41,337 bases of DNA from Lachnospiraceae bacterium (GTDB lineage Bacteria; Bacillota; Clostridia; Lachnospirales; Lachnospiraceae), in the NCBI GenBank assembly GCA_017437785.1, contig JAFRXH010000054.1, positions 1 through 41,337 on the forward strand, written 5' to 3'. Below, one piece after another: positions 1,533 through 18,818 of the stretch. A program made the translations under genes and the position numbers. Every line of letters begins with the position of its first letter. Position 1 is the first letter of the stretch. Below the pieces are notes generated by a model. The model saw only the letters and a list, made by a program, of their open reading frames with translations. It made no database searches and was not told where the DNA came from.

Positions 1533-3119
1533 ATGAAAGAGTTTAACACAACAGCGGTATGCATACCGTCAAAGCATTATATGGTAGACATCTCGGACCG
1601 TATCAAAGTGATCAGGCAACTGGTTGATGATGGGAAGTATATAACGATCAACAGGGCCAGGCAATACGGGAAAACAACAACCCTTATGGCTTTAAGATTG
1701 AATCTGATCGACGATTATATAGTGCTTTTGCTTGATTTTCAGAGGATTGATAAAGAATCGTTTCGAACAGGCGGCACGTTTTCAAAAGCTTTGGCAAGGA
1801 TCATTCTTGATCTTCATGAGTTTGAGAATCTTAGCATACCGGATAGTATTTTAACAGAGCTGGATAGATTTAATAACTCATCAAAAGCGGGGAAGATGGA
1901 TGACCTGTTCCGCATTCTGAAAAGGTGGATGAAGGACTCTGTCAAGTCCATGGTTATGATCATTGATGAGGTAGATAGTGCATCTGATAATCAGGTGTTT
2001 TTTGATTTTCTTTCACTCTTACGGGATGGATATATCAGCAGAGAGGCGGGGGGAGTTCCGGCTTTTCATTCGGTAATCCTTGCAGGGGTTACAGATATAA
2101 AGCATTTAAGGACAAAGATTCGTGACGATAAACAGCATAAGCTAAACAGCCCCTGGAATATTGCAACAGATCTTGATGTGGATATGAGTCTTTCGGAAGC
2201 CGGGATAAAGGCTATGCTGGATGAATATGATCAGGATCATCATATAGGTATAAAGACAAAGCTTATTGCAAAATATCTTAGGGATTACACTGGAGGGTAC
2301 CCATTCCTGGTTAGCCGGATCTGCGAGTTGCTGGATCATGGGCTGAATAACAGCTTATCATTATCGGATGCGTGGACGGAGAGAGGTGTTGATGAAGCGG
2401 TAAAAAATATTTTATCGGAAAACAATACTCTTTTTCAATCTGTAACAGGAAAACTCAATAACTATCCGGAATTAAGAAAAGCTATACGAAGTATTCTGAT
2501 GGAAGGAACAAAGCTGACATGGAATGCGCAGCAAGAAGCAATAGTACAGCTTCAGATGTATGGATTGATTCGAAATGATAATAATACAGTGAGGATCGCA
2601 AACAGGATTTTTGAAACCATGCTTTATAATCTGTTTCTTTCGGATGAAGAGATAAAGAATAATGAATTCTCAAGAAAGGGAGAATTTGCGAAGAATCAGT
2701 TCGTGGAAGATGGTAAGCTGAATATGCGTCTGATACTGGAACGCTTTATCGAAACCTACACTGAAATATGCGGACCGTTAAAAGAGCGTTTTAAAGAAAA
2801 AGATGGCAGGGAACTCTTTTTGCTATATATAAAACCGATTATTAACGGAACAGGTAATTATTATATTGAGGCACAGACACGTGATCAGACAAGAACGGAT
2901 GTGATTATAGATTATTTGGGCAAGCAATATATCATTGAGCTGAAGATCTGGCGGGGAGAAAGATATAACGAAGAAGGGGAAAAGCAGATTAGTGAGTATC
3001 TGGATTATTATGGCCTGGACACCGGCTATATGCTGAGTTTCAATTTCAACAAGAAAAAAGAACAGGGCGTAAAAAGAGTGCAATTGGGATCTAAAATCCT
3101 TTTTGAAGGAACGCTATAA
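1533..3119 (+). CDS. AAA-ATPase-like protein with C-terminal PD-(D/E)XK nuclease-like domain
   Basis: This 528-residue protein matches a family abundant in Lachnospiraceae and Bacteroidetes: an AAA-ATPase_like domain followed by a PDDEXK_9-type domain. The N-terminus (FNTTAVCIPSKHYMVDIS) and the unusual Walker A region NRARQYGKTTTL (residues 40-51) are typical; the P-loop begins R..QYGKTT rather than the classical GxxxxGKT. Walker B is MVMIIDEVD (about 140-148). Near the C-terminus D456, E469 and K471 (in ELK) with Q485 fit a PD-(D/E)XK core. It is preceded by GAAAGGGA as ribosome binding site. The cellular role of the family is not established; links to mobile DNA or genome defence are plausible but inferred. 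It lies in an islet with toxin-antitoxin genes. Confidence 0.85.
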   Translation: MKEFNTTAVCIPSKHYMVDISDRIKVIRQLVDDGKYITINRARQYGKTTTLMALRLNLIDDYIVLLLDFQRIDKESFRTGGTFSKALARIILDLHEFENLSIPDSILTELDRFNNSSKAGKMDDLFRILKRWMKDSVKSMVMIIDEVDSASDNQVFFDFLSLLRDGYISREAGGVPAFHSVILAGVTDIKHLRTKIRDDKQHKLNSPWNIATDLDVDMSLSEAGIKAMLDEYDQDHHIGIKTKLIAKYLRDYTGGYPFLVSRICELLDHGLNNSLSLSDAWTERGVDEAVKNILSENNTLFQSVTGKLNNYPELRKAIRSILMEGTKLTWNAQQEAIVQLQMYGLIRNDNNTVRIANRIFETMLYNLFLSDEEIKNNEFSRKGEFAKNQFVEDGKLNMRLILERFIETYTEICGPLKERFKEKDGRELFLLYIKPIINGTGNYYIEAQTRDQTRTDVIIDYLGKQYIIELKIWRGERYNEEGEKQISEYLDYYGLDTGYMLSFNFNKKKEQGVKRVQLGSKILFEGTL

Positions 3120-3137: not shown

Positions 3138-3245
3138 ATAATTTGCTTGATAAACTATTGCTTTTCGGCAAGCAAAGCTTATATTGAGGTGAAGGAAAAT
3201 CTCGAAGCACATACTGGAAGCATAGTTGTCAATTGTTATGAGTAA
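3138..3245 (+). pseudogene. Short open fragment, possible gene remnant
   Basis: The frame is open between stops at 3135 and 3243 and encodes about 35 residues ending in AHTGSIVVNCYE. The composition looks protein-like but there is no start codon with a ribosome binding site. It is probably debris between the two ATPase genes. Confidence 0.2.
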
Positions 3246-3262
3246 AAGCCGGAGAAATAAAC

Positions 3263-4237
3263 ATGTTAGGACAATACTACATTAAAGTAAGTAATAAAAG
3301 AGTTTCATTTGAAATCAAGATCAAGCGCAGCGTTACTATAATACGTGGTTATTCGGGGACGGGGAAAAGTACTTTCATTAATATGCTTGAAAGTGCTCTG
3401 ACCGAAACAGTGACCGGAATAACTCTCAATACAGATTATGACAGGAATAAGATCGAAGTTATCCGTAATAGCAGACAGATTGAGTATGTGATCCGTAGTG
3501 CTGAAAAGAACAAGATTTTTGTGATGGATGAGAATGTTGATCTTGAAAAGTACATTTATTTTGTTGAATATCTTAAAACCAGCGGATCATATCTGGTTTA
3601 TATTACTAGAAAGAATAGAACCGGGCTGTTGCAGTTTTCGGTGGATGAGATTTATACTTTTAATAGTAAAACCAATAATAACTATACAACGGTAAACATG
3701 TATCCAAAGTATCCTGATGTTGATATGGTTGTAGTTCCGGATATTATTGTAACAGAAGATTCAAATTCCGGTCACGACATCATAGAGCATATTGTTAATA
3801 TCCCGGTTGAATCCAGTGATGGAAAAGACAACGTTGCAAATATGATAAATGATATACGCGATAAGGGGTATTCTTCTGTATACGTCATAGTGGATTGTGC
3901 AGCATTTGGAAATTGTATAGAGAAGGTATTGGCTTTAGGTGCACATGTTTGCAGAATAGAATCTTTTGAGTATATGATGTTGAATACTTATGTTTTCGGA
4001 AAATTCCTGAATAACGAATTGACTGAAACGTATCTTTATGCAGAGAGCAGCTGTTATTATACGTGGGAGCAGTATTACACAGCGCTTCTTCAAGAGTTAT
4101 GTAAAAAGTTCCCGAATTGTTCTTATAGAAAAGATACATGGAACAGATTGAATGCTATGTTTAAGGCAGACAGATTCTTAGATGATATTGCAGGACAGCT
4201 AAAAGACTTGGATGAATCAGTTAAAACAGTGCAGTAG
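3263..4237 (+). CDS. P-loop NTPase with possible TOPRIM/DUF4435-like C-terminal half
   Basis: The 324-residue protein has two halves. Residues 1-130 carry a clear Walker A loop, GYSGTGKST (29-37), and a Walker B-like IFVMDE (85-90). I see no ABC signature motif, so this is a very short ATPase. Residues 150-245 resemble a TOPRIM domain of the DUF4435 type: a strand ending in E165 (IIVTED), a GKDNV segment (187-191), then VYVIVDCAAFG (206-216) in the place of DxDxxG with the second Asp replaced by Ala, and SFEYMML (234-240), which resembles the SIENYLL-type motif of DUF4435. GGAGA precedes the ATG. The next gene, a DUF4869 protein, lies 20 bases downstream. The layout recalls PARIS (AriA ATPase plus AriB DUF4435) in one compact chain. 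The P-loop is certain; the TOPRIM assignment is inference. Confidence 0.7.
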   Translation: MLGQYYIKVSNKRVSFEIKIKRSVTIIRGYSGTGKSTFINMLESALTETVTGITLNTDYDRNKIEVIRNSRQIEYVIRSAEKNKIFVMDENVDLEKYIYFVEYLKTSGSYLVYITRKNRTGLLQFSVDEIYTFNSKTNNNYTTVNMYPKYPDVDMVVVPDIIVTEDSNSGHDIIEHIVNIPVESSDGKDNVANMINDIRDKGYSSVYVIVDCAAFGNCIEKVLALGAHVCRIESFEYMMLNTYVFGKFLNNELTETYLYAESSCYYTWEQYYTALLQELCKKFPNCSYRKDTWNRLNAMFKADRFLDDIAGQLKDLDESVKTVQ

Positions 4238-4257
4238 TTCTTAAGAGGAGATATGTT

Positions 4258-4710
4258 ATGGTTAAAGTGTTATTCGGTAAAGATTTTGGTGAAGATAAAA
4301 CTATTTTAGATATAGATACATATTTTAATAATGTATATGAAAATGACTGGATGACTGATCCTGAAGTGAAGAAGATAATCAGAGATATAGATGGATCGGA
4401 GCTGGAAGGATTAAATGTTATAAGTCCCGTTTTAGGATCTATTTCAATCCGCGATATATCCGGAGGAGCAAAAGCGCTGATATGTTTGTTAAAGGAAGTC
4501 GAACCACAGGGATATATCGATTTGGTAGTGCTGGGAGAAAATTGTGAAAAATGGCTTGCTTACATTTTTGAGAGGAAAGATGTGCAGGTATGTATGACGG
4601 GGTATCATCTTTTTTTCAGGGATCATCAGGTTTCAGGTGTATGTTTAAATGATAATTCGGATATCAGAAATTCTGAAGACTGGAGAAATAAACTGTTTGA
4701 GTTTGGATAA
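4258..4710 (+). CDS. DUF4869 domain protein, 150 aa
   Basis: The protein matches my memory of the DUF4869 family of Clostridia: a start MVKVLFG, a YFNNVYENDW segment (about residues 22-31), and a central SPVLGSISIRDISGGAKALI region (about 56-75) followed by a conserved GENCEKW (about 93-99). It is small, acidic and soluble, with no membrane segment or recognisable active site. A strong ribosome binding site (AAGAGGAGA) precedes the ATG, and it is 20 bases after the P-loop gene, so both are probably co-transcribed and may form a complex. Its biochemical role is unknown. Family assignment is from pattern recognition and needs a profile search. Confidence 0.75.
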   Translation: MVKVLFGKDFGEDKTILDIDTYFNNVYENDWMTDPEVKKIIRDIDGSELEGLNVISPVLGSISIRDISGGAKALICLLKEVEPQGYIDLVVLGENCEKWLAYIFERKDVQVCMTGYHLFFRDHQVSGVCLNDNSDIRNSEDWRNKLFEFG

Positions 4711-4786
4711 TACGACATATATTGTGTAGAAGCCCGGGGCATAGCCGAGGGGCTCTGAGATTGGCTTCCGATTAAGGTTGTAACTA

Positions 4787-4815
4787 TTGACAAAATCTAT
4801 ATAGCATGATAGCAT
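4787..4815 (+). promoter_or_regulatory. Likely promoter of the HigB/HigA-ImmA operon
   Basis: A perfect -35 box TTGACA (4787-4792) is followed after 17 bases by TAGCAT (4810-4815), a four-of-six match to the -10 consensus. The -10 box overlaps the left arm of the inverted repeat at 4812-4842, which suggests repression by the antitoxin. Confidence 0.6.
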
Positions 4816-4863: not shown

Positions 4864-5235
4864 TTGGAATTGATATATGCATCCGAAAGAGTTGAAGAAC
4901 AATGTACCAGTGTTAAAGTGGCAGGTAAATTGTTTGGCGGAGATAAAGGGCTTGCTTTAAGCCTTCTGTCAAGAGTTAATGCGTTGAAAAGTGCAGAGAC
5001 AATTAAGGATATCATAATACAACCGACATTTCATTTTCACAAACTGTATAATAAAGATGGAAGAAATCTGGAAGGCTTTTTCGCAATAGATGTTAAATCA
5101 AGAAAGGATCAATGGCGTATTATCATTCAGCCACTTGATGAGAACAAAAAACCGTATGAATCAGTTATGATAGATCAGATAGCATCATGTGTCAGGATTG
5201 TTGAGATAATGGAGGTGAGTAAACATTATGAGTGA
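4864..5235 (+). CDS. higB: HigB/RelE-like toxin, plasmid maintenance killer family
   Basis: This 123-residue protein resembles the HigB-type killer family (RelE superfamily), toxins that cleave mRNA, usually at the ribosome. It opens with ELIYASERVEEQCTSV and continues with a helical segment (GLALSLLSRVNAL) and a PTFHFHKL region, in the order typical for the family. It starts with TTG at 4864, supported by a GGGGGG ribosome binding site 7 bases upstream. It overlaps the downstream HigA-ImmA gene by 8 bases, the toxin-first order of higBA loci, so the two are translationally coupled. The promoter overlaps an inverted repeat. A broken copy of the same gene start lies at 205-270. Confidence 0.8.
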   Translation: MELIYASERVEEQCTSVKVAGKLFGGDKGLALSLLSRVNALKSAETIKDIIIQPTFHFHKLYNKDGRNLEGFFAIDVKSRKDQWRIIIQPLDENKKPYESVMIDQIASCVRIVEIMEVSKHYE

Positions 5236-6307
5236 TTATATTGAATACAATGACAAGATAGCCTTTCATCCCGGTTATTATATCAGAGAAATTGTTGAAG
5301 AAAGCGGATTAACACAGGAGGATTTTGCAAAGAGGCTGGATACAACTCCGAAGAATCTTAGCTTATTGATTCGTGGTGAACAGAGTTTATCAATAGATAT
5401 TGCCGTGAAACTATCGAGAATGATAGGGACCAGTGTTATCTATTGGTTAAATCTTCAGAACTCGTATGATGCTTTGATTGCAGAATTTAAGTCGGAAGAA
5501 GAACTGGTCAATGAAAGAAAGGTTTTTTCTTATTTTGATTACAGATTTTTCAGGGATAATTATGGCTTGCCGGATCTGCCACGACAGAGGGATGAACAGA
5601 TCAAAGCATTAAGAGCTTTCTTTAAAGTATCTTCACTTACTGTACTGCGTAATAGAGATCTGGCAGTCAGTTTTAGGAGTGCAGCGGATGATCTGACTGA
5701 AGCGAGCACCGTTAAAGCAAATGCTATGGTACAGATTGCTATAAATAAAGCCATAAAGATTGACGCGCCCAGATTTAATAAGAAAAATTTTGAGAAGGTA
5801 GTAGAATACGCTTTAACACTCACAAAAAAACACGATGAGTTTTACATGTTATTGAGGAAAGCTTTTTTAGAGGCAGGTGTTGTTTTTGTGATTTTACATA
5901 ATATATCCGGATCCCAAACGAATGGCGCAACTAAAAAGATTGGTGATAATATTTTGCTGATGGTAAATGACCGCAGATTAAATGCAGATTCTTTTTGGTT
6001 TACTTTATTTCATGAAATAGGTCATATAATTAACGGGGATTACGGTATATCATTTGAACAGGATAACGGTAACAGGGAAGAAGCGGCAGATAAATATGCG
6101 CAGGATAGTCTTATACCCGCAGAACAGTATAAAGAATTTATAGAAAATGGCAGATTTGATATACAGTCCATCCGTGAATTTGCAGATAGGATAGATCGAG
6201 ATCCGGGGATTGTTTTGGGAAGACTGCAAAATGATAAAAAGGTTGATTATGACGATTGGACATTGAAACCGTTAAGGCATAAATATACTGTAAGAATGGG
6301 GGGATGA
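5228..6307 (+). CDS. higA: HigA-type antitoxin fused to an ImmA/IrrE-like metallopeptidase
   Basis: At 359 residues this is far longer than a plain HigA antitoxin (about 100). Residues 11-75 form a helix-turn-helix of the HigA/XRE type (HPGYYIREIVEESGLTQEDF, then LSLLIRGEQSLSIDIAVKLS). The C-terminal half is an ImmA/IrrE-type zinc peptidase domain with HEIGH (H262, E263, H266) and a downstream NREEAADKYAQD that supplies a likely third ligand. It overlaps the toxin gene by 8 bases. Known relatives neutralise the toxin and repress their own promoter; the peptidase domain may allow self-cleavage or signal-dependent release. The inverted repeat at 4812-4842 is the likely binding site. The following membrane gene overlaps it by 4 bases, which may be accidental. 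Confidence 0.85.
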   Translation: MSDYIEYNDKIAFHPGYYIREIVEESGLTQEDFAKRLDTTPKNLSLLIRGEQSLSIDIAVKLSRMIGTSVIYWLNLQNSYDALIAEFKSEEELVNERKVFSYFDYRFFRDNYGLPDLPRQRDEQIKALRAFFKVSSLTVLRNRDLAVSFRSAADDLTEASTVKANAMVQIAINKAIKIDAPRFNKKNFEKVVEYALTLTKKHDEFYMLLRKAFLEAGVVFVILHNISGSQTNGATKKIGDNILLMVNDRRLNADSFWFTLFHEIGHIINGDYGISFEQDNGNREEAADKYAQDSLIPAEQYKEFIENGRFDIQSIREFADRIDRDPGIVLGRLQNDKKVDYDDWTLKPLRHKYTVRMGG

Positions 6308-6675
6308 TGGACGGGATGGATCTGATAGTGATAGTATTTGCACTAGTCATAACGCTTCTGATAGAAGTGCCGTATGTGGCGCTGGTCATGAAGTACAGGC
6401 CGGTAAAGAACATCTTGGGCATCAACGTCTTTACAAATGTGCTGATCAATACTATCCTGTATGTGTTTAATGAGTCCGATCATACTTTTATTATATGGCT
6501 GGTATTTGAGCTGATATTCATACCGGTAGCGGAGTGGTGGTTTTATATAAACACGGATATGAATGGACTTAGCAAAAAGCGGATCATAATCAACACTTAT
6601 ATTGCCAATAGTTTATCCGCAGGTATCGGCGTAGTGCTGACCGAGCTTTTGTATGAAATGATCTACTATATGTGA
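6304..6675 (+). CDS. Small multi-pass membrane protein, 123 aa
   Basis: Three to four hydrophobic segments are visible: about residues 6-29, 36-52, 59-79 and 97-118, with few charged residues. I do not recognise a named family. ATG codons occur at 6304, 6307 and 6316; a G-run just upstream (6298-6302) is the only ribosome binding site, so the exact start is uncertain. It overlaps the antitoxin gene by 4 bases and is followed 13 bases later by another membrane gene. Its base composition is closer to the downstream core genes than to the islet. Together with the next three genes it looks like one operon ending in a C11-type protease; a partner or maturation role is possible but unproven. Confidence 0.65.
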   Translation: MMDGMDLIVIVFALVITLLIEVPYVALVMKYRPVKNILGINVFTNVLINTILYVFNESDHTFIIWLVFELIFIPVAEWWFYINTDMNGLSKKRIIINTYIANSLSAGIGVVLTELLYEMIYYM

Positions 6676-11459: not shown

Positions 11460-14400
11460 ATGAAGAATCGTAAATGGCAGCGCGTGCTGAGCTGGTTGCT
11501 CACATTGACTATGCTGCTGGGTACATTCGAGTCTAACATCCTCGCAGTCAACGCTATGGACGACGAAGCGGTTGAAGCTGATGCTGAGATCGATGAGGAA
11601 GACGTAGCCACGGCTGATGAAGATGTTGAAGAGCCTGAAGTAGTAGGAGGCACTTATACTGACAACAGTGGCGTCAGCATTGAGGGCTCTCTTGCTGCAA
11701 AAGATCTTGGTCCCGAAAATAATCAAGTTGGGCTCACAGCATACTATGGGAAGGAGTTTAATCCCATAGCAAAGTTTACCGCCAAAAACGCAGGCGATAA
11801 CGTAACCTGGAAACTGTTTGAGAGAGATAGCTGGAAAGAGGCTACTCTGTCTGACGGACTTCAGGGCACAGCGGAAGGTGCTGTATACACTATAAGTGGA
11901 ACACCTACCGGAAAGACAGGATATACTACGTATAAACTGAGTGCGGTTAGTGCAAATGGAACTGCAAGCGCTAATGTTTTAGTAAATATTTTTGTAGATC
12001 CTGTAGATTCGGACAGTATTGAAAAGTCAGCTAAAGATGCCAAGTGGGATGGCGTAAAGATGGGTTATACCGTTGATGCATCAGCAGCTTCCTCATCTAC
12101 TAATGTGGTTCCTAAGACCATCACCCTTACCAACGGTACAGGTATCGACCTTACAGGACTGACTGTGAAGCTGACCGGTGACGCTAAGGATAGTTTTGAT
12201 CTTACCGGAGCAGGAACGGATGTTAGCATTGCTAAGAACGGAACTCTGGATCTTACCGTAGCTCCCAAAGCCGGCCTGTCAGTAAAGGGTCTTAAAGCCG
12301 GTGAGGTTAAGACATTCAGTGCAGACATATCTATAAGTGCAGATTATCTGGTTAATTATAATACGGGTAGTAATGCGATTACTATTCCCGTAGAATTAAA
12401 ACTTGCTCATAACATGGACGTAACCGTTACCAAGGCTGGCGAAGCGTTCACAGGTAACAAGATTACTGTAAGTGCCGGCAATGCTATGCCTACACTGGTA
12501 TTCACTGCTACCGGCGGTAACGATTCGATCGCATGGCAGGACAACGGAATCCAGGACAAGCTTCCTAAGGGCGTTACTGCCAACAGGAATGGCGCAGTTC
12601 TGACTATTTCCGGTACTCCTACAATCAGTTCAGATGCAGTTAATACATATTCATTTGATCTGGTTGCATATGATAATGCAGGCGAGACCACAAATAACAA
12701 CACTATCTCCGGAAACTTTACCATTGATGTTGTTAAGGCTGATGTAAGCTACAAGGTTAATGGCGAAGATAAGCTGAATGTTGTTAAGACTGCAGCAGCC
12801 GGCTATTATCAGGAAGATGTAGCGCTTACCGTTACTGTAACCAATAATGGTGAAAGTGCTGTTAAGGTTAATGCTAACCTTGACAATAGCGCAAACTTCT
12901 CATTCTATCCCGATAAGAAAGCTGCTAAGACAATAGAATTAGCTGCAGGTGCAAGTGCAGATCTCAAGATCTATCCTGAGACAAGCGTAGAAGATGAAAC
13001 TGTAAAGATTACATTTACAGGTGATTCTATCGATCCTACTGAAGTTACCTACAGACTGATCTGCAAAGCAAATGTTCTGCTTATAACAGAACCTGCTGAC
13101 GGAAAGCTTACCGACGCAATCGTAGGTGAGAAGTACAGCTATACTTTCAAGTCAGAAGGCACAGTTCCTGCTGCTGACAGAAAGTGGAGCATCTCTGATA
13201 ATGCAGCAACCATTTCTGCTAATGATCTTAAGAATATCTATGGACTTACCCTTAGCGATAACGGTGTTCTGTCCGGTACCCCCAAGGCTGTAAGCGCTGA
13301 TGGTATTAAGATCCTTGTAGCTGTATCAAGCAACGATGTTGTTTCTACTAATGAAGTAACCCTTAAGATCGTTTCTACCAACAGTGCTCTCGTAGTATCT
13401 GCAAATGGTGTTGAGCTCAAGGGTAAGACCGCTTCTGATAATGTTGTTGATCTGGGCACAGTAAACACCAAGCTTACTGCATCCAGCATAAGCAACAATA
13501 CTGCAAAGATCTGGATCAAGAATACATCTGAAGTGGATCTTGGAAATGTTGATTTCTCGATCGTAAAGACAGAGAAACTTGGCAAAGATGGCAAGTATGT
13601 TGATTCTACTCTGAACATTTTTGATCCTGCAGACAAAGCGGGCGTAGTAAACAGCGAGTTCACTGTTAGCCCTAATGTAGCAGTGATCGGAGCTGATGCT
13701 TTTGGTGCTGACAATGCAGGCACTTATCGTGCTCTTTGCAAGGTTAACACTAATGCTAACATTGTAGCTAAAGAATTCTATGTAACCTTAACCATTAAGA
13801 ATGCAATTGAGATTACGGGCGCAAATAAAGCACTTGTTTTCGATTTCAACAAAGAGGTTAAGGGTGTAAGCTTCAATGCAGTATCTAAGAACAGTACAAC
13901 TCCTCTTAAGGATGTAACCTGGTCATGGACCGCAAGCGGTAACAGCAGCCTTCCTGAAGGACTTACTCTTGATGAGAAGGGTAATCTTACAGGTACTCCT
14001 ACAAAAGCTGGTTCCTATGACGTATCAGTTAACGCTGTAGACAACAACAATCAGGAAACTGATACCAAGTCATTTACCATCACCGTAAATGGAACTTCTG
14101 CTATTGAACTTACCAAGGGTAATGGCGATGCCATCACAGCTGTAACTTTCGACGGTATCATTAATGGTGATGAGATCAAAGCAGATGAGCTTGAAGTTGC
14201 TGTAAAGATCACCTCCGGTGATTCTTTGAGCGATGTTAAGGTTTCTGTTGAAGATCTTCCCGGATACGCAGGAAGTGCTCAACACTTTAAGCTTAGCACA
14301 GATACTATTGCAAAGATCAACAAGGGCGGCTTTGAGAAGTTTACTGTTGTTCCTGTAGGCAATACAGAGAGCGGAACTTTCAAGGCTAAAGTTGTTGTAA

Positions 14401-17400
14401 GCAGCAATGCTATTGAAGCTAAGTCATTTGAGGTTTCCTTTACTGTTGCTGATAAGCTTACCATCAATGATGTTCCTGCTGATAAGCTTGTTGCAGAAGT
14501 TGGCCAGAACTTCAGCCTTACTGTAAGTGCAGCTTCTATTTCTTACAATAAGGTAGCAAAGGAAGGAGAGGTTAACTGGACTATTTCAGAAGTAAGCGCA
14601 AATGGTGCATATGAGAGAATATTTAAAAGTGCGAATGGATCGGCTATAGAAGTGAACAATTACCTGTTTGCTAAGGCAGGCACCTATTACTATGTTGTAA
14701 GTGCAAATATCGCAAAAGATGATACTCTTAAGGTTCCTGTAAATAAGGCAGAACTTAAGCTTACAGTTGAAGTAGGCAAGAGTGCATCTGTAAATGTGAT
14801 AGGAGTAACTGCTAACGCAAGTGGTTATTCAACCGGTAAGGCTACTCCTGAGAATCCCAGCGCAAGCAACAATGTAACAGCATATACCTTTGCATCACGT
14901 GCAGAAGGTTATACTGATACAAATAAAGAAACTGCAACCTTCACAGTAAAGAATGATTCATGGTCAATTTTAGTTGTTTCCGGTAATGCATCAAGTACTG
15001 ACTTTGTTGTAACCGGTGGTGATGCAGCGCCTATGGTTGGAACAGAGGACATCAGCGTTTCTCCCAAGAAGGGTCTTGCTGCAGGTACCTACACGGCTGA
15101 TCTGGTTGTAAATGGTCCCGAAGTAGCAGACAAGGTTGTAACACTTTCCTTCACTGTTGAAGAAGCTAAGGACAGCATTGAAGTAAGCTCTAACAACGTA
15201 GTTGTAGCTGAAAGCGGCCTTACACTTAAAGAGACTATGAAGGGTAAATCTGCTGTTGACACTACTGTAGTATTCAAGAACACCGGTAATGTAGATATTA
15301 ATGTAGTCAGTATCAATGAAGTGCTTGATGCAGACGGAACAGATATCGACATTAATGATAACTCCAAGTTCAAGCTTACTATCAATAAAGCAAGTGCAAC
15401 TGGATTAATGATCCCCGATGCAACAAAGAGCTTTACTATCAGACCTACCAAGACAGATGTAGCCGGCGAGTACACTGCTTATGTGAAGATCACTTACACT
15501 GTAGGTACTTCTATTAAGACACCTGTTGTATTCAAGGTTAACTACACTATCTATAAAGATTCTGTAAGCGTAAACGTTACACCTTCTGCAAATACCGTTT
15601 CTATCAACGGTACCGCAAGCGTATCTGAGAACTATTCTACCGCATACAGCGTTGGATTCTCAGTTGCTAACGGCGAAGCAGGTGTAGCAGGCGATACTAC
15701 CGAGACCCTGTACAATCTTAGAGTAGCTCTTACCGGAGCAGATGCAGATAAGTTTGAACTTACTGCTGCAAAGGTTAGCGAGAACAGCGCTGAGTACGGT
15801 GCTGATAAGATCGCTAAGGGAGCATCTTACAGCTTTAACATTGCTGCTAAGAGCGGCCTGTCATACGGCGTATACAAGGCAACTCTGAAAGTAAGCGCAA
15901 GCAACATGACCCCTATTACTAAGGAAATCGTATTTACCGTAACAGGTAAGGCTGGCAGCTACACCAAGGATATCAATTCCAAGGGCGTAAGCGACAACGT
16001 AGCAGTAAATGCTAACCGTATCAGGAACACCCTTCAGGCACTGGTTGATAACAGTGTAGCAGGTGTTACAGCTAACGGTGCAGTATATACTGTTCAGAAG
16101 GATATCACTGTAGATTTCACTGTAGCAGATAGCGTTGAGATCAAACTGGATCCTAAGCACAGCATTTCTACCGACAGCGTAAGCGTTAACAGAAATGGCA
16201 AAACAGCTACTACTACTGTAGGTGATGGTTCTTACTACGATACCATTTACTTCAACATCTACAACATTGTTACCTTTAAGGCTAACGGCGGTAAGTTTGC
16301 AGATGGATCTGATATCGTATCTGTTAACGTTGTTAACGGCAGCAAGGTAGCTGAGTTACCTTCAGTATCCAAGAACAACGCTTCACTCAAGGGTTGGATG
16401 GATGAGAAGCTTAACGAGTTCACTACTGCTACTACCGTAAGCCAGGATATCGTTCTTACAGCATCCTGGTCAGCACACACCTATCCCGCAAGCGCAAGCG
16501 GCAACAAGGCCGGTCAGATCGAGTGGACATGGAACGGAACTGCAAGCGATAACTTCGCAGGCACCTTCGTAACCATCTACTGCACAGATACTGATTGCCC
16601 TGACAAGGCAGCAAGCGCTATCAAGCTTGATGCTACCATCACCGTATCCGGTAAGGATGCAAGCTGCACCAAGGGTGAGGCTAAGGTTTACACCGCTACC
16701 GCAGCTAAGGATGGCAATGTTTACACAGATACTCAGACTGTAGCAGGCGAAGAAGGTCTTGGCCATAAGTGGGTAGTTGATGCAAGCAACCCTGTATGGG
16801 CTGAGGATTACTCAAGCGTAAGCATCAACAAGACTTGCGAAGCTGCATACCACACCAGCGAAGATGGCGACAAGACTGTTGCTATCGTAACCAAGAACAT
16901 CAGCTTCAATGGTGCTGAGGCAACCTGCACCACAAGCGGAAACGGCGTATACACTGCAACCTTCACAAGCGAAGATGATCCCGCTATCAGCGAGAATATC
17001 GTAGTAAGTGTAAATGCTGCAGAAGTACCCGCACTTGGACATGACTACAAGGTTAAAGCAGAATGGACCGATAACGGCTTCGAGAACACACCTAGCGTAA
17101 ACGCAGTACTTGTTTGCTCAAGATGTGAAGAAGTTGTTAGCGAAAACCTGACCGTATCCGTTGAACTTGTAAGTGAGAACGAAGCTAAGAAGGATTACAA
17201 GGCTGTTGTTACTTACGAAGACAAGACTTACGAGAGCGAAATCTACTCTGTAATGAATCACACCGAGCACTCTTGGAGCGTAAGCTTCAACTGGACCGGC
17301 ACCACTTCCGAGAACGCTGTTGTAGAAGCAATTGCTACCTGCGCTAACGGTGGTGAGACTGTTGTACTTTCACCCGATGTAGAGAAGAAGGTTACTTCTA

Positions 17401-18818
17401 AGAACGTTACTTACACAGCAACCGTTAAGGATCCTGATGGTAAGGAATGGAGCGAGAAGTACACCGTTAACCTTGAGTCCGGCGAAGGCAAGGTAGGCGG
17501 CGGCGAAGGCATCGAGATCCGCGACCTTGAGGATAGCTATCCTCTTACCGGAAAGCAGATCAAGCCTGCGATCACCGTTTGGGATCTTACCCGCGACGTA
17601 CAGCTGGCTTACAAGGTTGACTACACTGTTAAGTATGGCAAGAACAATGCAGCAGGCGAAAAAGCTGGTTCCATTACTATCGTTGGTAAGGGTAACTACA
17701 CCGGCCAGACTGTAACCGCTAACTTCGACATCGTTGATCCTATGGAAGGTATGAGCGAAGATGAAGTAGCTGAGCTTGCAGCACTTAAGAAGGCAAAGAT
17801 CGCTAAGATCGATGCTGCAACCTTTACCGGTTCTGCAATCTATCCTGAGACCATCTCTATTAAGACTAAGAATGACGGCGAAGTTGTTATGAAGTCTAAT
17901 GGCGACGGTACTTACGAAGCAGCTGAGGGAAGCAAGAGTGTTGTTGTAGTAGTAACCAATAACATTAACAAGGGTACGGCTACTGTAGCAGTAACCGGAT
18001 CCGATGCTACAACCCTCAAGAAGACCTTTAAGATCAAAGCAGCTGATATCAACGCAGCAGTTATCGCTGATATCGACGCAACTACATTCGCAGTTAAGGG
18101 CGCTACTCCTGCACTGGATGTAACCTTCAAGGCATCTGACGATGCTGAAGAGATCGCACTGGTTCAGGGTATGGACTACACTGTATCTTACAAGAATAAC
18201 AAGGCTGTTGGCACCGCTACCGTAACCCTTAAGGGTAAAGGTAACTTTGCTAAGAAGGGCCTGAGCAAGACCTTCGAAGTAACTGCATTCGATCTGAGTG
18301 AAGTAGAAGAAGATGCTATCGCTGTAAATGCTTTTACCGGCATTAAGGCTGGCAAGGTTAAGGTAACCGTAGTCGATGGCAACGGTTCCGTGATCCCTGC
18401 TAAGAACTACACGGTAGAAGTATTCCAGGGCGAAAGCGAAACCGCTCTTGCAAAGGGAGCTAAGCTTGCAGCCGGTGATGCTACCATTAAGATCACCGCT
18501 AAGGGCAGCAACCTTACCGAGTCGGTTGAGAAGAGCATCGTTGTAGCTGACAAGATCAGCAAGGCTAAGGTAAAGGTTAACCTTACCAAGACCTACACCG
18601 GCGAAGCTATCACTCTTACCGATGAAGACTTCAACAACATAGCAGTAACGCTTAACAAGGCTCCGCTTGTATATGGTGAGGACTTCGTAGTAGCAAGCTA
18701 TGCTAACAACATCAAGAAGGGCAAGATGACCGTAACTATCGAAGGTATCGGCAAGTACTCAGGAACCAAGACCTTCAAGGTTAAGATCGTTCCTCAGGAA
18801 ATGAAGCCCGCTGAGTAA
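11460..18818 (+). CDS. Giant secreted multi-domain surface protein, 2452 aa
   Basis: A signal peptide is clear (MKNRKWQRVLSWLLTLTMLL, cleavage near the ALAVNA-like site about residue 32), followed by an acidic linker. The chain alternates putative Ig-like (He_PIG) units, recognised by LxxGLTLxxxGxLxGTPT (about residues 130-165, 365-400, 590-625, 835-875), with beta-rich units of the type VxNxGxxxVxV. An InlB-like B-repeat lies at about 1600-1675 (VTFKANGGKFADG). Paired-cysteine units follow (about 1705-1965), then four or so C-terminal repeats with YTVxYxNNxAxGxAxVTxxGxGNYxG (about 2026-2452). No LPXTG or NPQTN signal and no terminal membrane helix is visible, so anchoring is unclear. Lys, Asn and Thr codons are strongly biased, especially in the second half, consistent with high expression. 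AAAGGAG precedes the ATG. Likely an adhesin or cell-surface scaffold. Confidence 0.85.
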   Translation: MKNRKWQRVLSWLLTLTMLLGTFESNILAVNAMDDEAVEADAEIDEEDVATADEDVEEPEVVGGTYTDNSGVSIEGSLAAKDLGPENNQVGLTAYYGKEFNPIAKFTAKNAGDNVTWKLFERDSWKEATLSDGLQGTAEGAVYTISGTPTGKTGYTTYKLSAVSANGTASANVLVNIFVDPVDSDSIEKSAKDAKWDGVKMGYTVDASAASSSTNVVPKTITLTNGTGIDLTGLTVKLTGDAKDSFDLTGAGTDVSIAKNGTLDLTVAPKAGLSVKGLKAGEVKTFSADISISADYLVNYNTGSNAITIPVELKLAHNMDVTVTKAGEAFTGNKITVSAGNAMPTLVFTATGGNDSIAWQDNGIQDKLPKGVTANRNGAVLTISGTPTISSDAVNTYSFDLVAYDNAGETTNNNTISGNFTIDVVKADVSYKVNGEDKLNVVKTAAAGYYQEDVALTVTVTNNGESAVKVNANLDNSANFSFYPDKKAAKTIELAAGASADLKIYPETSVEDETVKITFTGDSIDPTEVTYRLICKANVLLITEPADGKLTDAIVGEKYSYTFKSEGTVPAADRKWSISDNAATISANDLKNIYGLTLSDNGVLSGTPKAVSADGIKILVAVSSNDVVSTNEVTLKIVSTNSALVVSANGVELKGKTASDNVVDLGTVNTKLTASSISNNTAKIWIKNTSEVDLGNVDFSIVKTEKLGKDGKYVDSTLNIFDPADKAGVVNSEFTVSPNVAVIGADAFGADNAGTYRALCKVNTNANIVAKEFYVTLTIKNAIEITGANKALVFDFNKEVKGVSFNAVSKNSTTPLKDVTWSWTASGNSSLPEGLTLDEKGNLTGTPTKAGSYDVSVNAVDNNNQETDTKSFTITVNGTSAIELTKGNGDAITAVTFDGIINGDEIKADELEVAVKITSGDSLSDVKVSVEDLPGYAGSAQHFKLSTDTIAKINKGGFEKFTVVPVGNTESGTFKAKVVVSSNAIEAKSFEVSFTVADKLTINDVPADKLVAEVGQNFSLTVSAASISYNKVAKEGEVNWTISEVSANGAYERIFKSANGSAIEVNNYLFAKAGTYYYVVSANIAKDDTLKVPVNKAELKLTVEVGKSASVNVIGVTANASGYSTGKATPENPSASNNVTAYTFASRAEGYTDTNKETATFTVKNDSWSILVVSGNASSTDFVVTGGDAAPMVGTEDISVSPKKGLAAGTYTADLVVNGPEVADKVVTLSFTVEEAKDSIEVSSNNVVVAESGLTLKETMKGKSAVDTTVVFKNTGNVDINVVSINEVLDADGTDIDINDNSKFKLTINKASATGLMIPDATKSFTIRPTKTDVAGEYTAYVKITYTVGTSIKTPVVFKVNYTIYKDSVSVNVTPSANTVSINGTASVSENYSTAYSVGFSVANGEAGVAGDTTETLYNLRVALTGADADKFELTAAKVSENSAEYGADKIAKGASYSFNIAAKSGLSYGVYKATLKVSASNMTPITKEIVFTVTGKAGSYTKDINSKGVSDNVAVNANRIRNTLQALVDNSVAGVTANGAVYTVQKDITVDFTVADSVEIKLDPKHSISTDSVSVNRNGKTATTTVGDGSYYDTIYFNIYNIVTFKANGGKFADGSDIVSVNVVNGSKVAELPSVSKNNASLKGWMDEKLNEFTTATTVSQDIVLTASWSAHTYPASASGNKAGQIEWTWNGTASDNFAGTFVTIYCTDTDCPDKAASAIKLDATITVSGKDASCTKGEAKVYTATAAKDGNVYTDTQTVAGEEGLGHKWVVDASNPVWAEDYSSVSINKTCEAAYHTSEDGDKTVAIVTKNISFNGAEATCTTSGNGVYTATFTSEDDPAISENIVVSVNAAEVPALGHDYKVKAEWTDNGFENTPSVNAVLVCSRCEEVVSENLTVSVELVSENEAKKDYKAVVTYEDKTYESEIYSVMNHTEHSWSVSFNWTGTTSENAVVEAIATCANGGETVVLSPDVEKKVTSKNVTYTATVKDPDGKEWSEKYTVNLESGEGKVGGGEGIEIRDLEDSYPLTGKQIKPAITVWDLTRDVQLAYKVDYTVKYGKNNAAGEKAGSITIVGKGNYTGQTVTANFDIVDPMEGMSEDEVAELAALKKAKIAKIDAATFTGSAIYPETISIKTKNDGEVVMKSNGDGTYEAAEGSKSVVVVVTNNINKGTATVAVTGSDATTLKKTFKIKAADINAAVIADIDATTFAVKGATPALDVTFKASDDAEEIALVQGMDYTVSYKNNKAVGTATVTLKGKGNFAKKGLSKTFEVTAFDLSEVEEDAIAVNAFTGIKAGKVKVTVVDGNGSVIPAKNYTVEVFQGESETALAKGAKLAAGDATIKITAKGSNLTESVEKSIVVADKISKAKVKVNLTKTYTGEAITLTDEDFNNIAVTLNKAPLVYGEDFVVASYANNIKKGKMTVTIEGIGKYSGTKTFKVKIVPQEMKPAE

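Follow-up and report, generated by a model that had tools for sequence, protein, structure and literature searches.

A mobile DUF4869 cassette of Lachnospiraceae as a possible minimal ABC ATPase-effector machine with a divided ATP site

Background

ABC ATPase-TOPRIM machines, including OLD, Gabija, PARIS, AbiL and MADS, form a class of immune effectors that recurs in bacteria, and in PARIS the ATPase AriA keeps AriB in an inactive state until a trigger protein of the phage binds (sections of PMC12409363). Here we describe a two-gene cassette in a stretch of 41,337 nucleotides (the window; JAFRXH010000054.1, one contig of a 3.2-Mb Lachnospiraceae genome), in which a P-loop/effector fusion protein, named PT, is encoded beside a protein of the DUF4869 family. 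With a probability of roughly 0.4, this mobile cassette would be a minimal ABC ATPase-effector machine in which an ATP site shared by the two proteins controls a TOPRIM-like effector.

The closest described system is PARIS, composed of the ABC ATPase AriA and the Toprim tRNase AriB. Both associate an ABC-type ATPase with a TOPRIM-like effector, split or fused, and AriA chains occur among the structural matches of DUF4869. However, the ATPase of PARIS is one full ABC protein, whereas here an ATPase part of about 140 residues is accompanied by a separate partner of 150. The part of PMC9122126 that defines PARIS sets AAA_15 at 32 bits or AAA_21 at 27 bits, plus DUF4435 at 27 bits; PT scores 12.9 bits with AAA_15 and matches neither AAA_21 nor DUF4435 at E ≤1. 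The sections of PMC12409363 on PARIS do not mention DUF4869. OLD proteins, including Gabija GajA, differ in that PT lacks their helical/signature ATPase part, has no match to PF20469 (OLD-like TOPRIM) at E ≤1 and is accompanied by a second gene. On these scores identity with PARIS or OLD was rejected. Septu/retron PtuA, AbiL and MADS likewise join an ABC ATPase to a partner effector (for AbiL and MADS, sections of PMC12409363); PtuA chains rank high among the matches of DUF4869, and PT has weak matches to PtuA and mad3 profiles. Nevertheless, the best PADLOC score of PT is 27.8 bits (LmuB), and DUF4869 has no PADLOC match at E ≤1. In the literature searched, a scope that left out most subscription papers and all bioRxiv preprints, neither DUF4869 nor PF16163 is named, and nothing on divided ABC ATPases or ABC-TOPRIM systems was recognised as the PT-DUF4869 unit.

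A conserved two-gene unit

The cassette has the following features:

3191..4709, plus strand: exchangeable cassette (blastn, 98.7% identity over 1519 bases with positions 5673-7191 of contig L002)
3263..4237, plus strand: PT, P-loop/effector fusion protein of 324 residues (open reading frame, homologues and alignment)
3347..3373, plus strand: Walker A, PT residues 29-37, GYSGTGKST (G29, G34 and K35 invariant, n=29)
3518..3532, plus strand: Walker B with glutamate, PT residues 86-90, FVMDE (E90 invariant, n=29)
3734..4234, plus strand: PT C-terminal half, with E165-D166, GK 187-188, D211, E233-S-F-E236 and E269 (motif order TOPRIM-like, unproven)
4246..4250, plus strand: AGGAG, resembling a ribosome-binding site for the DUF4869 gene (by eye)
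4258..4710, plus strand: DUF4869 protein of 150 residues, the proposed signature half of a split ABC ATPase and effector restraint
4456..4473, plus strand: ABC-signature-like motif, DUF4869 residues 67-72, ISGGAK, opening a predicted helix (69-79)

The original prediction, made by reading the DNA, was right about the gene pair and its motifs. Walker A, the Walker B-like motif, E165, GKDNV (187-191), VIVDCAAFG (208-216) and SFEYMML (234-240) are all present, and the second aspartate of DxDxxG is an alanine, A213. The DUF4869 gene starts 20 bases after the PT stop codon (at 4258) and matches PF16163 with an E value of 7.1e-21 and 74.9 bits, for a curated Pfam cut-off of 28.9. An alignment of PT with 28 homologues shows that G29, G34, K35, E90, E165, D166, G170, D211, G216, E233-S-F-E236 and E269 are invariant and that A213 is conserved in more than 90% of the sequences; since they are invariant across 29 sequences, the motifs are not due to chance. 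Against Pfam, PT yields P-loop families below threshold, all starting in its first half, and none specific to the second half; NCBIfam and PADLOC add further weak P-loop matches and nothing else.

The pairing which that prediction proposed to survey is conserved. In 299 genomes of the family Lachnospiraceae, including that of the window, PT matches 58 places, and each of the 45 homologues with E ≤1e-9 has a DUF4869 gene within 2.5 kb on the same strand. Four of the 13 weaker matches lie near DUF4869, and the other nine, which do not, cover the P-loop half only. Conversely, PT is found near 46 of 62 strong DUF4869 places (E <1e-13); DUF4869 comes first in 41 of these pairs and PT in five, so that the window shows the minority order. 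PT and DUF4869 thus constitute a conserved two-gene unit.

DUF4869 occurs in 57 of the 299 genomes (above the Pfam cut-off in 54) and in none of 14 controls. A class-wide sample of 391, which overlaps that of the family, includes seven matches, six of them above the cut-off and all six from the family of the window. Within the genus, PT matches were found in 15 of 35 genomes, one of which has six. The pair is also present in plasmid records of Agathobacter rectalis, Ruminococcus albus 7 and the actinomycete Collinsella aerofaciens; each has DUF4869 followed by a 'hypothetical protein' that matches the PT profile over almost its whole length.

A second clade (clade 2) presents a three-gene form, in which the halves of PT are encoded by separate genes and DUF4869 lies between or before them. 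The three modules thus form one set, either fused or split. The N-half-like protein, of about 142 residues, aligns with the N-terminal half of PT (hhalign, 98.0%, E 2.2e-13, 121 columns), and the C-half-like protein, mostly of 223-237 residues, with the C-terminal half (94.1%, E 1.3e-7, 140 columns). The 23 loci examined account for 24 of 38 weaker DUF4869 rows; of the other rows, one is a fragment from clade 1 (L108) and 13 were left out. All three genes are near full length in 15 loci, while the C-half gene is broken in two and was not detected in six; the P-loop gene was found in all 23, partial in one. In one locus (L113) DUF4869 is interrupted and no C-half gene was seen. Gene order in the 17 loci with a C-half gene is C-half/DUF4869/P-loop (nine) or DUF4869/P-loop/C-half (eight). 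The clade-2 alignments found no relatives in viral contigs.

A proposed ABC-type ATPase divided between PT and DUF4869

The N-terminal ATPase of the original prediction is supported: the predicted fold of this half of PT is that of an ABC-type nucleotide-binding domain, and Walker A, Walker B and a glutamate of the catalytic type are all present. The signature motif is missing. In 45 P-loop proteins, the 75 residues that follow Walker A contain none (a 46th protein, which lacks a canonical Walker A, was left out). DUF4869 shows the complementary pattern, with [LIMV][SA]xGxK in 59 of 59 aligned sequences and Walker A in none. Few elements of DUF4869 are invariant; this signature-like motif is one of them and opens a predicted helix. 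The predicted DUF4869 fold resembles ABC ATPases weakly; its structural matches are all of the ABC class among the matches listed, with PtuA chains ranking high and AriA chains included.

Asymmetric ABC heterodimers such as TM287/288 have one degenerate ATP site, and in their consensus site the Walker motifs come from one subunit and the signature from its partner. The same division of one site between two partners is proposed here; however, the asymmetry would be complete, PT being without a signature and DUF4869 without Walker A. It has tentatively to be considered, as a bolder version of this proposal and a less probable one, that PT and DUF4869 are the halves of one ABC ATPase, with Walker and signature functions divided between mutually dependent partners, that they form possibly the smallest ABC-TOPRIM effector machine, and that phages encode only the DUF4869 half as a means of jamming or calming this machine.

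PT would supply the ABC-type nucleotide-binding domain, fused to a TOPRIM-like domain that probably cuts nucleic acid. DUF4869 would be a degenerate ABC-like partner bringing the signature [LI]SxGxK, and a single composite ATP site would be built from both proteins. By analogy with AriA and AriB, the ATP-bound complex could keep the effector inactive in the resting cell, and an infection cue could alter this complex so that the effector is freed or switched on. The C-terminal half would then act on nucleic acid and growth would stop, perhaps as a suicide defence against viruses. If this is correct, DUF4869, above the cut-off in 54 of the 299 family genomes, would acquire a function, and the cassette would offer a minimal model of how an ATP state gates a TOPRIM-like effector through a site divided between two small proteins. 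It would also provide a testable link to the DUF4869 genes carried by phages.

Loss of PT and persistence of DUF4869

Clade-1 DUF4869 places with E <1e-13 were sorted by eye from their open reading frames, one place at a contig edge being dropped. Both genes are whole in 35 of the 61 places, DUF4869 is whole with PT broken in 14 or absent in seven, and both are damaged or absent in five; PT is never whole with a broken DUF4869. Two calls are borderline: a 'broken' PT in G042 is merely short at its C-terminus, and the profile match of a 'whole' PT in G076 stops at position 246. The resulting ratio of 21 to 0 gives p 3.4e-4 in a length-weighted binomial test and p 0.011 in Fisher's test. This sample was drawn through DUF4869; the reverse search with PT found no PT at E ≤1e-9 without DUF4869 in the 299 genomes. 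PT is thus lost before DUF4869, an order that the original prediction did not see, any more than the three-gene form or DUF4869 as the missing signature half. Such retention is to be expected of a PT that is harmful without DUF4869, although a partner required for stability would be compatible as well.

In L062, a viral contig derived from an isolate genome, DUF4869 is whole and PT interrupted, and an integrase and a minor head protein are encoded nearby. A 126-kb viral contig (L064) carries, close to a phage-type DNA polymerase, two adjoining solitary DUF4869 genes (4884-6436), one of which has a long extension at its N-terminus. In a third (L065, 340-5450), a solitary DUF4869 lies beside the tRNA ligase RtcB and a tRNA-His guanylyltransferase, tRNA-repair-type genes which, on this one contig, hint at RNA as the target. 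The DUF4869 frame of L065 contains one in-frame TAG, and none of 11 long frames at the locus ends in TAG; the genetic code may differ. Five human-gut 'phage' records with the pair (MT83xxxx) were not counted as phage copies, as in most of these records the adjoining genes look bacterial; in one of the five, the PT frame found is truncated at its start.

The lone persistence of DUF4869 and its solitary phage copies are as would be expected of an inhibitory partner. They are also what another arrangement would produce, namely a pair of the toxin-antitoxin kind: DUF4869 would act on an ATPase-TOPRIM effector as an ordinary protein inhibitor, use LSGGxK for something else and share no ATP site. 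The partner is kept when the effector is lost, a trait of type II toxin-antitoxin systems, with a ratio of 21 to 0 among the 61 places. Moreover, the genes are small and adjoining, their pairing is conserved, DUF4869 is solitary in two phage contigs, and its resemblance to ABC ATPases comes from weak, single structure and profile matches. This alternative nevertheless appears unlikely, although it survives better than the others considered below, because it leaves aside that the signature-like motif belongs to the few invariant elements of DUF4869, that it is the sole ABC motif missing from the P-loop protein, and that the structural matches listed are all of the ABC class.

Mobility and the question of defence

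Homology between the cassette and L002, a contig of a Lachnospiraceae metagenome-assembled genome, ends at the end of the DUF4869 gene; the immediate flanks differ and homology resumes at position 6319 of the window (95%). This pattern suggests that a unit of 1.5 kb is exchanged as a cassette. L002 carries another DUF4869 gene at 4321-4788; it has no P-loop gene of its own and lies some 1 kb upstream of the near-identical cassette.

It is the analogy with ABC-TOPRIM systems, and not location, that supports the defence reading. The original prediction proposed a survey for enrichment near defence genes, and none was seen, which weighs against a defence role: at E 1e-10, PADLOC gave 29 member matches among 146 neighbouring proteins, spread over 27 families, and 30 among 141 control proteins, in 17 families. 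The neighbours were those of 20 copies (146 of 154 proteins, eight being left out by size limits), and the controls came from 19 of 20 stretches, mostly of the same contigs or genomes, proteins above 900 residues being left out. Neighbours are diverse across the 20 copies, and polysaccharide-type genes recur.

The unit might accordingly have nothing to do with defence and be a selfish or regulatory cassette, for instance one tuning the surface-polysaccharide loci in which several copies lie. Glycos_transf_2 (6/146) and Epimerase (5/146) are found among the neighbours and in neither case among the control families with at least two members, and copies lie within polysaccharide-type clusters of G719, G695 and Collinsella. 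Other copies occupy unrelated sites: one example adjoins glycerate kinase and proS, and another separates two genes resembling rapZ and whiA (L222, 6785-8245, by eye), which are normally near neighbours. Furthermore, the frequent decay of PT suggests a costly and conditional function, and a role outside defence is judged quite improbable.

The C-terminal half of PT

The effector half of PT is rather likely to be TOPRIM-like. Its low-confidence model has elements at 161-164, 171-178, 182-184, 189-200, 206-209, 212-223, 229-233 and 235-241, with strands at 161-164, 182-184, 206-209 and 229-233, an order of strands and helices that matches the TOPRIM layout. Several Lachnospiraceae proteins found with an OLD-like TOPRIM model (L122, for example) carry VEGKQD, NSCTNI, IRDSDG and YYSFENYFL in the same order as the corresponding motifs of PT.

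Several observations weigh against this assignment. The half is mostly modelled at a predicted local distance difference test (pLDDT) below 50, a poor result attributable to a structure-prediction alignment of four rows only. The Pfam TOPRIM, DUF4435 and OLD-TOPRIM families have no match in PT at E ≤1. Comparison with OLD-like TOPRIM domains by hhalign remains at the level of shuffles: the score of alignment A3 is reached by 17 of 60 shuffles, that of A4 (the clade-2 C-half) by nine and that of their union by three. Neither C-half alignment found a TOPRIM chain among PDB sequences. Moreover, TOPRIM domains are characterised by a glutamate that follows strand 1 and a DxD that follows strand 3; here E165 and D211 are invariant and the second aspartate is replaced by alanine in 29 of 30 sequences. 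The absence of TOPRIM rows from the structural matches of PT is uninformative, since a single domain (residues 1-153) fills the list. DUF4435 matches occur in two of 120 family genomes, too few for a profile to be built as a yardstick. Of the minimal ATPase-TOPRIM effector with a DUF4869 partner that was originally predicted, the two-gene unit and the ABC-type N-terminal half thus stand; the TOPRIM identity has motif and predicted strand/helix order in its favour and neither a profile match nor a confident model.

It is least likely that this half is a TOPRIM without catalytic activity, or some other Rossmann-like domain, that binds a nucleotide or a partner, the unit being a sensor or switch with its output elsewhere: A213 and the lack of a profile match would be explained, but six acidic residues are invariant (E165, D166, D211, E233, E236, E269), most stand-alone clade-2 relatives retain D-x-x-x-D-N (D61 and N66 invariant, D65 above 90%, n=13), and no third gene common to the fused loci inspected was seen. 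The C-terminal part of the clade-2 family also has a conserved GECW...CC...CG cysteine cluster, possibly metal binding, which is absent from view in the fused form.

Neighbouring genes in the window

Downstream of the cassette (4864-6307) lie a HigB-like open reading frame (E 0.009, under its cut-off) and a gene with HTH/IrrE domains; upstream, short open reading frames at 112-433 resemble, by eye, a piece of this HigB-like gene (LIYSNAKVEKQCTS vs LIYASERVEEQCTS), which would suit a toxin-antitoxin pair with one decayed side. The toxin-antitoxin surroundings originally described are borne out in part.

A hotspot at rsmA was considered and dropped, the rsmA homologue in the genome of the window being on another contig beside other genes. 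In G695, an rsmA-like gene directly precedes a gene for a 123-residue protein whose counterpart lies to the right of the window cassette (by eye). Positions 1533-3119 encode a 528-residue AAA_35-like ATPase whose tail is of the PD-(D/E)XK type, and genes that look by eye like AAA-ATPase_like relatives adjoin DUF4869 cassettes in G719 and G695. Further downstream, positions 11460-18818 encode a repetitive surface-type protein of 2452 residues, and a similar-looking protein of 941 residues is found to the right of the L002 cassette (by eye).
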